DNA from: Actinocatenispora thailandica
GTDB lineage: Bacteria > Actinomycetota > Actinomycetes > Mycobacteriales > Micromonosporaceae
Reading direction: 5' to 3'
Assembly: GCF_016865425.1 (NCBI RefSeq)
Contig: NZ_AP023355.1
Span: 6,818,198-6,882,197, forward strand
DNA length: 64,000 nt
A model generated the notes under the pieces. It was not told the DNA's origin, ran no database searches, and saw only the letters and a program-made list of their open reading frames with translations. Of the stretch, positions 5,006 through 56,434 are shown piece after piece. The stretch's first letter is position 1. Each line of letters opens with the position of its first letter. A program made the position numbers and the translations under genes.

Positions 5006-5980
5006 GTGCATGCGGTGATCAGGAACGCGGACGGCGGCCCCGAGGTGCTCGACTGGGCCGAGGTACCGGATCCGACCCCCGGCCCGGGTGAGGTCGTCAT
5101 CGAAGTCGCCGCGGCCGGTGTCAACCGCGCCGACATCCAGCAGCGCCGCGGGCTCTACCCGCCGCCGCCCGGCGCACCCGAATACCTCGGCCTGGAATGC
5201 TCCGGCCGGATCTTCGCGGTCGGCGCCGACGTGACCGACTGGCAGCTCGGCGACGAGGTCTGCGCGCTGCTGCCCGGCGGCGGGTACGCGGAGCGGGTCG
5301 CGGTCTCCGCCGACACGGTGCTGCCGGTACCGGCCGGTGTCTCGCTGCGCGACGCGGCCGGCCTGCCCGAGATCGCCTGTACCGTCTGGTCCAACCTGGT
5401 GCAGGCCGGACGGCTGGCCGCCGGTGAAACGCTGCTCGTGCACGGCGGCGGCAGCGGCATCGGTACCTTCGCCATCCAGCTCGCCCGCGCCCTCGACGCG
5501 GTGCCGTACGCGACGGCCCGCACCGTCAAGCACGACGCGTTACGCGCCCTCGGCGTCGAGGAAGTGTTCGACTACACCAGTACCGACTTCGTCGCCGCGC
5601 TCGCCGACGCGACCGGCGGCCACGGCGCCGACGTCATCCTGGACCACATCGGCGCCAAGTACCTGACCCGCAACGTCACCGCGCTCGCCCGCAACGGCCG
5701 GCTCGTCGTCATCGGCTTCCAGGGCGGCCGTACCGCCGAACTCGACCTCGGCCTGCTGATGGCCCGCAACGCGTCCCTGACCGTCACCGGGCTGCGCGCC
5801 CGGCCGCTGCCGGAGAAGGCGGCCATCGTCGGCGAGGTGCGCACCCAGCTGTGGCCGCTCATCACCTCGGGCGCGATCCGCCCTGTCGTCGCCGACACGT
5901 TCCCGCTGCCGGACGCCGCCGAGGCGCACCGCGTGATGGAAGCCAGCTCTCACCTGGGCAAGCTTCTTCTTACCCGCTGA
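5006..5980 (+). CDS. Zinc-independent NAD(P)H quinone oxidoreductase (PIG3/QOR type)
   Basis: 324 aa from GTG 5006; the frame is open upstream, but homology to the family begins at this start. Medium-chain reductase without zinc ligands: GVNRADIQQRRGLYPPPPG (residues 38-56) is the hallmark of the PIG3 branch and HGGGSGIGTFAIQLA (147-161) is the nucleotide-binding loop. These enzymes reduce quinones or unsaturated carbonyls with NADPH in the cytosol. A divergent promoter is shared with the spermidine-synthase-like gene. The large inverted compound repeat begins right after the stop codon. Confidence 0.88.
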   Translation: MHAVIRNADGGPEVLDWAEVPDPTPGPGEVVIEVAAAGVNRADIQQRRGLYPPPPGAPEYLGLECSGRIFAVGADVTDWQLGDEVCALLPGGGYAERVAVSADTVLPVPAGVSLRDAAGLPEIACTVWSNLVQAGRLAAGETLLVHGGGSGIGTFAIQLARALDAVPYATARTVKHDALRALGVEEVFDYTSTDFVAALADATGGHGADVILDHIGAKYLTRNVTALARNGRLVVIGFQGGRTAELDLGLLMARNASLTVTGLRARPLPEKAAIVGEVRTQLWPLITSGAIRPVVADTFPLPDAAEAHRVMEASSHLGKLLLTR

Positions 5981-34079: not shown

Positions 34080-34790
34080 TTATCGTCCGCTGCCGGGCGC
34101 CGACTGGGGCCGGCCTGGGATCAACCTGTGTACCAGGCCGAAATCGATGGCGGCCGATGCCGACAGATCCCGCCGATCGGACAGCGCGCTCTCGACCTCC
34201 GACTGGCTGTGACCGGTACGGTCGGCGAGCCGGACCGCGAAGTCCTCCAGCAGCCGCAGGTGGGCGCCCGCCGCCCGGGTGACGTCCTCGGCGGTGCCGG
34301 CCAGCTCGTCCACCCGCGGCTCGGCCAGCACGAACCTGGCATGCGGGTACGCGAGGCGCTCACCCGCCGCGGCATAGACGCCGACGGCCGCGCCGCCGAC
34401 CGTACCGAGGGCCACCGCCCGGACCGGAGTCTGCATCAGCTCCAGCACGTCGATCAGGCCGAACGCGGCGGACAGCTCGCCGTCCGGGCTGGACACGTGC
34501 ATGGTGATCGAACCACGCGGCCCGGCCAGCGCGTCCAGGGTCATCAGCGCGGCGCTGACCCGGGAGGTCAGCTCGGCGGTGATCGGACCGGACACCGACA
34601 CCGTCTGCTGCTCGAACATCCGCTGTTCCAGCCAGGACGCGGGCCCGCCGGCCGCGACGTGTTCCGGCGCGGCGAACCGGGACGGCTCGCCGGGCACCCC
34701 GCCCGGTCGCCGGCCCGGCACGTCGCCCGGATCGCCGGGCGGTCGCCAGTCGGGAATCCCGCCGTACCGCGCCATCACGCCGTAGCTCAT
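34080..34790 (-). CDS. ClpP-like protein lacking the catalytic Ser and His
   Basis: 236 aa from ATG 34790 (GGAGGAAGG upstream). After a Gly/Pro-rich N-terminus (about 1-55) comes a ClpP/crotonase fold: RMFEQQTVSVSGPITAEL, SPDGELSAAFGLIDVLELM, VRAVALGTVGGAAVGVYAAAG and ERLAYPHARFVLAEPR. Aligned to ClpP, the nucleophile position of ASMG is Gly and the catalytic His of IHQP is Ala, so proteolysis is not expected. Non-catalytic ClpP paralogs (ClpR-like) modulate other Clp rings. Its start overlaps the stop of the last 26-codon ORF (ATGA), the final link of a coupled chain from the XRE gene. Confidence 0.85.
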   Translation of the reverse strand: MSYGVMARYGGIPDWRPPGDPGDVPGRRPGGVPGEPSRFAAPEHVAAGGPASWLEQRMFEQQTVSVSGPITAELTSRVSAALMTLDALAGPRGSITMHVSSPDGELSAAFGLIDVLELMQTPVRAVALGTVGGAAVGVYAAAGERLAYPHARFVLAEPRVDELAGTAEDVTRAAGAHLRLLEDFAVRLADRTGHSQSEVESALSDRRDLSASAAIDFGLVHRLIPGRPQSAPGSGR

Positions 34791-34867
34791 CGACCTTCCT
34801 CCTTCGTCGGAAGCCCGACGAGGCACCACACACAGCACCCATGATTCGCTCGCTGACGCTCACTCAT
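34787..34867 (-). CDS. 26-aa ORF, repeat unit 3, coupled to the ClpP-like gene
   Basis: Starts ATG 34867 on the stop of unit 2 and ends TGA 34787-34789 inside the ATGA of the ClpP-like start. The product has a CCVWC centre (residues 11-15) and ends PTKEEGR. Codons (AGT, CGA, AAT, TGT, AAG) are unlike the GC3-rich genome, so a functional peptide is uncertain; a leader or coupling role is as likely. Confidence 0.5.
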   Translation of the reverse strand: MSERQRANHGCCVWCLVGLPTKEEGR

Positions 34868-34944
34868 CGGCCTTCCTCCTCCGTCGGAAGCCCGACGAGG
34901 CACCACACACAGCACCCATGACTCGCTCGCTGACGCTCACTCAT
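34864..34944 (-). CDS. 26-aa ORF, repeat unit 2
   Basis: Starts ATG 34944 overlapping the stop of unit 1, ends 34864 overlapping the ATG of unit 3. CCVWC centre and end PTEEEGR. Two residues differ from unit 3. Confidence 0.5.
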   Translation of the reverse strand: MSERQRASHGCCVWCLVGLPTEEEGR

Positions 34945-35021
34945 CGGCCTTCCTCCTCCGTCGGAAGCCCGATGAGGCACCACGCGCAGCACCCATGATT
35001 CGCTCGCTGATGCTCGCTCAT
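34941..35021 (-). CDS. 26-aa ORF, repeat unit 1, coupled to the XRE gene
   Basis: ATG 35021 overlaps the TGA of the XRE gene (ATGA), ends 34941. CCAWC centre; His, Asn, Ala and Ile replace residues of unit 2. The most diverged of the three copies. Confidence 0.5.
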   Translation of the reverse strand: MSEHQRANHGCCAWCLIGLPTEEEGR

Positions 35022-35296
35022 TGGGGCTTCTCTCCGCCGTCGCGTAGCCGCAGGTCGAGCCGCCGGTGCACGGCGCCCGCATAACGCTCCAATGTGGACA
35101 GTCGGGCGTCGACGGTGCCGGACTCCAACCGGGCGACGGCCGACTGCGAGGTACCCATCCGGGCGGCGACCTCGGCCTGGGACAGCCCGGCAGACCGCCG
35201 CTGCGCCACCAGCTCGGCGAGCAGGCCGCGACGCCGCTCCGCCATCCCCCGGAAACCGGGAAAGACCGGCAGCTCCTCGTCGTCGTCCGGCGCCAT
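35018..35296 (-). CDS. XRE-type helix-turn-helix regulator (HigA/antitoxin-like)
   Basis: 92 aa from ATG 35296. HTH segment SAGLSQAEVAARMGTSQSAVARLESGTVDARLSTLERYAGAV is complete. The size matches small XRE regulators and HigA-like antitoxins, but no HigB toxin gene adjoins it. It heads the chain of coupled ORFs that ends in the ClpP-like gene. The near-palindrome ATATTTGATAT just upstream (35292-35302) could be an operator or -10 region. Confidence 0.82.
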   Translation of the reverse strand: MAPDDDEELPVFPGFRGMAERRRGLLAELVAQRRSAGLSQAEVAARMGTSQSAVARLESGTVDARLSTLERYAGAVHRRLDLRLRDGGEKPQ

Positions 35297-47608: not shown

Positions 47609-47668
47609 CCCTGCCCTCCTGCCGTTGCCCACCAGCTGCCCGTGCCGTTCCGCGCCCGGTCCGGCATC

Positions 47669-47804
47669 GGCCCGGACGTCCCTGCCGGCCGGACGCCGGA
47701 CCGGCCCGGACGTCCCTGCCCGCCGGACGCCGGACCGGCCCGGACGTCCCTGCCTGCCGGACGCCGGACCGGCCCGGACGTCCCTGCCCGCCGGACGTCG
47801 AGGC
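47669..47804. repeat. Four 34-bp tandem repeats in the divergent promoter region
   Basis: Units begin GGCCCGGACGTCCCTGCC at 47669, 47703, 47737 and 47771, exactly 34 bp apart, differing at one or two positions each. They lie between the lipoprotein gene start (47608) and the response-regulator gene start (47908). Confidence 0.88.
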
Positions 47805-55691: not shown

Positions 55692-56434
55692 CGGGTTTCA
55701 CCGTGCCGGGCTGGCGGGCTGACGGGCTGACGGGCTGACGGGCTAGCGGGCTGGCGGGCTGGCGGGCTGGCGGGCTGGCGGGGCAAAGGCCACCTCTGTT
55801 CGCTGGCTGCACCCCGCGTGGGGAGATGTGGGGAGGGGCTTCGCCCCTCCCCACGCCCCTCCCTGCCAAGGGGGCAGTCGCCCCCTTGGCGATCCCCCGT
55901 CGGGGGCCGGTGATCGGGAAGGACGCCGCCTGGCCGCCTCGACACGTCGGGAACCGGTGCTCGGAGCCCGACGCCGCCTGGCCGCCTCGGAACCGCGGGG
56001 ACCGGTGACGGAATCGACGCCGCCTGGCCGCCTCGGAACCGCGGGGACCGGTGACGGAATCGACGCCGCCTGGCCGCCTCGGAACCGCGGGGACCGGTGA
56101 CGGAATCGACGCCGCCTGGCCGCCTCGGCACGTCGGGAACCGGTGACGGAACCAGGGCCGCCCGGCCCGGTTCGGAGCATCGGGGACGGTGGAGGGACCG
56201 GCGGTGGCGGCCCGGTTCGCCACCTCGGGGCTCTGCCCAGCGGTTCCGTCCCGGTGTCCCCCGCCCGCGCAGCGGGCCGGGGGATGCCAGGCGTTGGTCG
56301 AAGACCACGCCGGGCACGGCAGAAGGCTGCGGAACACGCAACGCGGGGGTCCGGGGGGCTCGGCCCCCGGGCTGGCATAAGGAAGGCGACCCGGCTCGCG
56401 CTTTCCGCGAGCACAGGCCGCCAGAGCCTTCCGG
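55692..56434. repeat. Compound intergenic repeat, locus 3, with tail arrays
   Basis: Between the convergent SDR gene and tRNA-Leu. First an 8-bp array (GGCGGGCT, about nine copies, 55708-55783), then the head AAAGGCCACCTCTGTTCGC (55785-55803), ACCCCGCGTGGGG, a perfect 12-bp hairpin (55828-55839/55843-55854) and a 10-bp hairpin (55865-55874/55881-55890), then the tail of five 46-48-bp units starting GACGCCGCCTGGCCGCCTCG (55922, 55970, 56016, 56062, 56108). A further hairpin CCGGGGG/CCCCCGG lies at 56351-56370. No gene. Confidence 0.85.

Follow-up and report, generated by a model that had tools for sequence, protein, structure and literature searches.

Three tandem copies of a MIRU-like, putatively mobile repeat at a start codon in Actinocatenispora thailandica

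A chain of overlapping reading frames upstream of a ClpP-like gene

The window analysed here, a stretch of 64,000 nucleotides of Actinocatenispora thailandica DNA, carries on its minus strand a compact chain of five ORFs, namely an XRE-family gene, three unit ORFs and a ClpP-like gene, in which each pair of neighbours shares an ATGA (Table 1). An earlier sequence-only reading had described this chain and placed its last overlap at the start of the ClpP-like gene, in agreement with our coordinates. Its assignment of the two outer genes was borne out by Pfam as well, with HTH_3 (E 2e-10) for the XRE gene and CLP_protease (PF00574, E 3.1e-22) for the ClpP-like gene. Unit 1 had no Pfam match and the three unit peptides had no NCBIfam match, while an Rfam search gave no match at the gathering score and one weak match, inside the ClpP-like gene.

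Table 1. Positions of genes, unit ORFs and predicted hairpins at the XRE/ClpP-like locus of the window
Feature	Position	Strand	Remarks
XRE-family (Cro/C1-type HTH) gene	35018..35296	-	its TGA overlaps the ATG of the first unit; Pfam
Unit 1, 26-codon ORF MSEHQRANHGCCAWCLIGLPTEEEGR	34941..35021	-	stop overlaps the start of unit 2
Unit 2, 26-codon ORF MSERQRASHGCCVWCLVGLPTEEEGR	34864..34944	-	ORF and sequence comparison
Unit 3, 26-codon ORF MSERQRANHGCCVWCLVGLPTKEEGR	34787..34867	-	stop overlaps the ClpP-like start
Unit 1 hairpin (predicted)	34941..34975	-	next ATGA and part of the SD AGGAGGA (34957-34951) paired; first four SD bases in the loop
Unit 2 hairpin (predicted)	34864..34898	-	SD 34880-34874
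Unit 3 hairpin (predicted)	34787..34821	-	SD 34803-34797; closes on the ClpP-like start codon
ClpP-like gene, 236 codons	34080..34790	-	element sits at its start codon

Each unit ORF consists of 26 codons plus a stop, with start-to-start distances of 77, 77 and 77 nt, and the array has the top score (419) among the 34 tandem-repeat rows of the window. The units had been called exact 77-bp tandem units, which is right for their equal length and 77-nt spacing but not for their sequence: over 85 nt, the middle unit is 96% and the 5′ unit 91% identical to the 3′ unit. As had been claimed, every one of the three has a strong ribosome site of its own, an AGGAGGA upstream of the next ATG, and encodes a peptide with a CCxWC centre. 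The unusual codon use ascribed to them can be recognized against their immediate neighbours, with a GC3 of 0.73, 0.65 and 0.62 in the units compared with 0.90 in the ClpP-like gene and 0.87 in the XRE gene. When the ClpP-like protein was aligned pairwise with 6hwm, Gly and Ala were found at the places that we take to be those of the catalytic Ser and His of active ClpP; without these two residues, it is unlikely to be active as a peptidase.

The unit belongs to a family dispersed in Actinocatenispora

A search for the unit in relatives, set beforehand as a check of the sequence-only reading, revealed dispersed copies. Using one unit as the blastn query, we obtained 30 matches in the window's genome (G000) and found the unit in all 4/4 Actinocatenispora genomes, the others being A. 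comari (G001), A. rupis (G002) and a fourth genome of the genus (G003); outside Actinocatenispora, 1/57 genomes had a weak match. An exact pattern occurred in 23 stretches of the named collection, which may exclude records of the window's own species, all of them from A. comari or A. rupis. At an E of 0.01, and with up to 150 candidates scored per genome, a covariance model built from 66 units matched G000 83 times, G001 86 times, G002 26 times and G003 73 times. Because the unit family is dispersed, a chance origin of the window array is excluded.

Within the window, the covariance-model scan lists units 1 and 3 without unit 2, probably because the latter overlaps both. Three other tandem arrays (47668-47799, 34 bp x 3.8; 55707-55782, 8 bp x 9.5; 55901-56151, 46 bp x 5.4) are absent from its list. 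A weak match on the minus strand at 5627-5706 (10.2 bits, E 0.19) is possibly a decayed unit or due to chance.

From 76 gathered loci, profile matches were merged into 80 element sites, the window among them. At 65 of these 80 sites the profile was matched to its end and was followed by an ATG or GTG opening an ORF of at least 50 codons. Scatter over non-genic places without conservation of frame, which the sequence-only reading had named as evidence against itself, was not found to be the rule; the 15/80 sites that failed the start-codon filter lie at the ends of contigs, are truncated or decayed, or have short ORFs, and 3 of them lead to ORFs of >150 codons. Under a stricter rule (an ORF of 60 or more codons with a GC3 of 0.75 or more), 63/80 element sites qualified, all counted among the 65 that had passed the filter, versus 107/265 ATGAG control sites from the same loci.

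The genes behind these starts are a varied group. Pfam matched 15 of 19 downstream genes of G000, with four lacking a match at the cut-offs used; the matches include the small chain of carbamoyl-phosphate synthase, chain 6 of NADH dehydrogenase, galactokinase, peptide deformylase and a lyase, as well as ABC and MFS transporters, LacI-type regulators and others, and no common function is apparent among them. Clustering placed 34/47 downstream-gene clusters in one genome only, a figure that is overstated since only gathered sites were compared; by flank alignment, a second species carries the unit at L032, L042, L047 and L048 at least.

Empty sites place the repeat at start codons

For nine G000 sites, the two flanks were put together and used as queries across the genus, and eight of these sites plus the window locus were examined by alignment. 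The empty sites at carA, nuoJ, L047 and L048 are clean. The carA site is empty in G003 and G002 and holds one 77-bp unit in G001. The nuoJ site is empty in G003, in G001 (3 nt shorter) and in G002 (flank 30 nt shorter). L048 is empty in G002 and has the unit in both G001 and G003. At L049, G003 is empty, G002 lacks the unit and has a flank that is 20 nt shorter, and the unit of G001 is shortened. Both G001 and G003 carry the unit at L032, with a contiguous flank match in G002. At the transporter gene of L047, the copy number is two in G000, one in G001, one in G003 and none in G002. The flanks of L035 and L037 aligned poorly and were left out of the empty-site count.

As for the window locus itself, the XRE and ClpP-like genes of A. 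rupis are joined by a direct ATGA overlap and have no unit between them; the units present at this junction in A. comari and G003 are degenerate. The absence from A. rupis could represent loss of the unit instead of a site that was never invaded. At the junction in A. comari (L060), a GCGA is found where the window has ATGA; the original XRE stop has therefore been lost there.

The codon at the left boundary was GTG in 9/54 cases and that at the right boundary in 2/65; the carA start in the two empty relatives is GTG as well. An SD-like tetramer precedes 32/54 leftmost unit starts, and 26/54 of these starts overlap the stop of the upstream gene, a count for which a genome-wide rate for comparison is not at hand. 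Comparison of the species at several sites shows the repeat, as read from the aligned flanks, to lie exactly at gene start codons.

Frame and spacing are kept while the peptide varies

Counts of frame were made on the 82 units with both ends present, out of 88 near-full unit matches. The distance from DTGA to ATGA is 77 in 37 of these units and 80 in 29, and the spacing is 2 mod 3 in 72/82, with 10/82 deviating. Stops are found in the unit ORF frame of 0/82 full units, as opposed to 31/82 in frame 2. One locus of G003, L087, has five 78-bp units that are mutually in frame, and the unit ORFs there are therefore fused into one longer coding stretch; an array of seven unit matches lies at L087:1958-2492.

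For the encoded peptide, a high ratio of silent to amino-acid changes among the copies had been put forward as a sign of function. This was not what we found, since dN/dS over the whole unit was 0.70 and 0.80, compared to 0.77-0.93 in the control (wrong) frames, which would fit weak selection on the peptide. The 5′ half of the unit alone gave 0.63 and 0.66; the control-frame values cover the whole unit. The CCxWC motif occurs in 4/82 units, the three of the window and one that A. comari has at the corresponding locus. In the 26-residue form of the peptide (n=37), Arg6 is present in 37/37, Cys15 in 36/37, Pro20 in 36/37 and Thr21 in 34/37, and the codons of Arg6 and Cys15 lie outside the hairpin part of the unit.

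A covarying hairpin at the 3′ end of the unit

In the 66-unit alignment, columns 50-62 pair with columns 72-84, such that CTC[A/G]T and a variable stem face the next ATGA and a portion of the SD, with the first four bases of AGGAGGA lying in the loop. Of the alignment cells in this hairpin, 91.7% are able to pair versus 83.7% after shuffling, and 58 cells are changed on both sides versus 16.2 in shuffles. The covariation score of 0.277 compares with 0.142 for shuffled alignments and at most 0.077 for slid controls; it was reached in 0/500 shuffles, a count that is not a probability because related copies share changes. In each of columns 54-57, four or five kinds of standard pair are seen. The number of pairs with both-side change, 6 versus 4.9 shuffled and reached in 117/500 shuffles, is unremarkable. 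In a count addressing pairing as RNA versus single-stranded DNA, G.U was seen 62 times and A.C 8 times, where the column make-up leads one to expect 75.3 and 18.5. By its covariation, the 3′ third of the unit is shown to be able to form a hairpin in which the start codon and a portion of the SD are base-paired.

When units were folded separately, the pairing probability of the start codon exceeded 0.8 in 69/82 Actinocatenispora units and in 41/67 units of other genera, compared with 15 and 5, respectively, when the upstream sequence was shuffled; for the SD positions, pairing is close to one half (0.54 and 0.58). At seven empty sites, pairing of the start codon ranges from 0.01 to 0.99, one being highly paired (0.99). 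Folds of longer stretches were only mildly more stable than those of shuffles, the z-scores of five stretches being -1.6 to -2.4 with one of +1.0; the exception is the carA unit, whose best fold is a different one from the hairpin.

Related units outside the genus

The 5′ motif of the unit was found in 82/200 genomes of the family (18/44 genera) and in 62/397 genomes of the order, four other families included; the reversed control pattern had no match among the matches listed in the family and order searches. Outside Actinocatenispora, a small ORF with a DTGA overlap at its end is present at 69/70 distinct motif sites, and 64/70 lead to a gene-like ORF or a further unit. Among control short ATG ORFs from the same loci, 231/563 have a DTGA overlap and 86/563 lead to a gene-like ORF or unit. 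The spacings of these sites, 35 to 92 nt, were dropped as evidence, being derived from the ORF and therefore 2 mod 3 by construction of the count. In a genome of another genus (G111), five 77-bp units stand in tandem. The peptides of the unit relatives in other genera are quite different. The genome G449, from another family, retains a 35-nt piece of the motif at L238, with its ATGA end still on a long ORF.

Discussion

We consider it very probable that the window holds, as three copies in tandem, a short, non-autonomous and MIRU-like mobile repeat, which in the genus is mostly 77 or 80 bp long and resides at start codons. The name-giving MIRUs, mycobacterial interspersed repetitive units, reportedly go back to Supply et al. 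1997. Both the translation of the unit ORFs and the mobility of the repeat are what we infer from unit anatomy and occupancy.

As the comparison of species at several sites shows, the repeat sits exactly on the start codon of a gene (DTGA), and the old start becomes that of the small ORF. The repeat brings along a new SD and a new ATGA, the latter serving as the gene's new start, and the small ORF ends in this same ATGA with a 4-nt overlap. In the proposed mechanism, a ribosome arriving from the gene's original SD and leader, or coupled from an upstream gene (here XRE), would then translate the small ORF, melt the hairpin, terminate at the TGA and, judging from the anatomy of the unit, re-initiate at the overlapping ATG with the help of the unit's SD. 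The insertion may thus be nearly neutral for the gene and yet tie its translation to translation upstream. Such re-initiation would explain how insertion can be tolerated at genes such as carA, nuoJ and peptide deformylase, and also the retention of frame and hairpin alongside a drifting peptide. At the window locus, a unit presumably inserted into the XRE/ClpP ATGA junction before the lineages of the window's species, A. comari and G003 separated; it would have decayed in the latter two and, in the window's species, been expanded or homogenised to three copies. The coupled chain of the sequence-only reading is upheld in part: frame, spacing and hairpin conservation at many sites lend the predicted coupling good support; specificity for XRE and ClpP finds no support.

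Our search of the open-access literature found no account of the element in Micromonosporaceae. Calling it an undescribed system was nevertheless too strong, given that mycobacterial MIRUs are described as doing likewise in the available excerpts of PMC12548453, where they occur in 'many mycobacteria', appear mobile, insert at start codons and couple the MIRU ORF to the gene with a -4 nt spacing. According to an excerpt of PMC4213456, three MIRUs, identical and 77 bp long, lie between senX3 and regX3 in strain H37Rv, MIRUs at this place being restricted to M. leprae and the M. tuberculosis complex. MIRUs measure 40-100 bp and occupy 41 loci in M. tuberculosis H37Rv, with copy number differing between isolates at 12/41; MIRU-type repeats serve in tuberculosis strain typing, and their exact function is called not well understood (PMC2734929, excerpt).

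Set beside these partial descriptions, the Actinocatenispora units are likewise short, dispersed and often in tandem (77/80 bp; 83 model matches in G000), their ORF is spaced for coupling at -4 nt in 72/82 full units, and empty sites at several genes parallel the apparent insertion of MIRUs at start codons. Copy number varies between isolates for MIRUs and between species, the level compared here, for our unit. The two differ in their hosts, mycobacteria versus Actinocatenispora and other genera and families of the order. In the Actinocatenispora unit, a covarying hairpin is predicted to pair the new start codon; the comparison with MIRUs covered the layout described in the excerpts. As far as these excerpts go, then, the architecture is by analogy the same as that of mycobacterial MIRUs, in another lineage and with a hairpin that would lock the start. 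We call the unit MIRU-like, not a MIRU, because the taxa differ and the likeness is one of architecture.

Other classes of small repeats were considered too. MITEs are marked by terminal inverted repeats; by eye, none were found in the 66-unit alignment, the conserved inverted repeat being the 3′ hairpin, and membership in this class was rejected as the unit ends are not inverted copies of each other. REP and REPIN elements with their RAYTs are short, dispersed, hairpin-bearing and non-autonomous, all of which applies to the Actinocatenispora units, and their hallmark is a Y1 (TnpA-REP) transposase in the genome. Our units differ from them in their conserved ORF and start-codon overlap, and G000 and G002 have no Y1 match. 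Stable hairpins and open reading frames are found as well in the small mobile RU-1, RU-2 and RU-3 sequences of enterobacteria, but these are described as intergenic or as in-frame fusions to other reading frames, and the term 'start codon' is absent from the available part of the text (PMC2759123).

How the repeat moves bears on one of the rival explanations, in which REP-type repeats would be mobilised by an IS200/IS605-like Y1 (RAYT) transposase acting on the hairpin. We regard this as quite improbable. The 3′ hairpin does adjoin a short fixed boundary, and GTG is more frequent at the left than at the right boundary, as if the right start had come with the element; however, PF01797 had no match in the single-contig G000 (96.6% complete) or in G002. 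In the 200 family genomes, 52 of which have Y1 transposases, these enzymes, looked for as candidate mobilisers, were not associated with the motif (21/52 Y1-positive genomes with motif versus 82/200 overall, counted by eye). As the share of motif-bearing genomes among those with Y1 is about the overall one, and G000 and G002 have no match to the enzyme, a RAYT is unlikely to be needed now.

The remaining alternatives concern what the units do. That they are a selected regulatory device, in which chosen genes would answer, through the locked hairpin, to translation upstream or to ribosome status and extra tandem copies would tune output, in line with the metering suggested by the sequence-only reading, is rather unlikely in our view: compensatory changes in the hairpin, the variation of copy number among species at one site and the seven-unit array all speak for it, but the downstream genes have mixed functions, sister species have several sites empty or decayed, and most downstream-gene clusters, even if their count overstates the matter, come each from one genome only. 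Still less do we favour peptides that act in trans, as the metal binders or Clp adaptors that the sequence-only reading had envisaged. While the absence of in-frame stops from 82/82 units, the near-invariant Arg6, Cys15, Pro20 and Thr21, two of them encoded outside the hairpin, and the lower dN/dS of the 5′ half would suit such a role, which we consider highly improbable, the whole-unit values close to those of wrong frames, the scarcity of CCxWC and the quite different peptides of other genera argue against it. A private XRE/unit/ClpP operon system is hardly credible despite the gene order and coupling at the window locus and the remnants at the same place in A. comari and G003, since dozens of other loci carry the unit and the XRE/ClpP pair of A. 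rupis does without it; the dispersed sites, the empty sites and the A. rupis junction refute such a system as what the unit does in general.

Beyond the MIRU-like repeat of Actinocatenispora, it is quite possible, albeit not something we would yet count on, that the units belong to a large and unnamed superfamily of start-codon-targeting mobile micro-elements that spans Micromonosporaceae and several other families of the order and of which MIRUs may be one branch. Its members would be portable re-initiation cassettes, made of a small ORF and a start-locking hairpin that is opened by the translating ribosome and possibly doubles as a recombinase recognition site. If this is true, such elements rewire the translation of many genes into obligatory coupling.

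For the biology of these organisms, the unit would constitute a natural cassette for translational coupling. Its occurrence also calls for caution, since start codons and small ORFs in such genomes can stem from insertions, which could explain small ORFs beginning with MSERQRANH or MSERSERI. A family that offers soil actinomycetes with dozens of copies, with sites left empty and with copy numbers that differ makes the movement of such repeats and their effects on genes testable.
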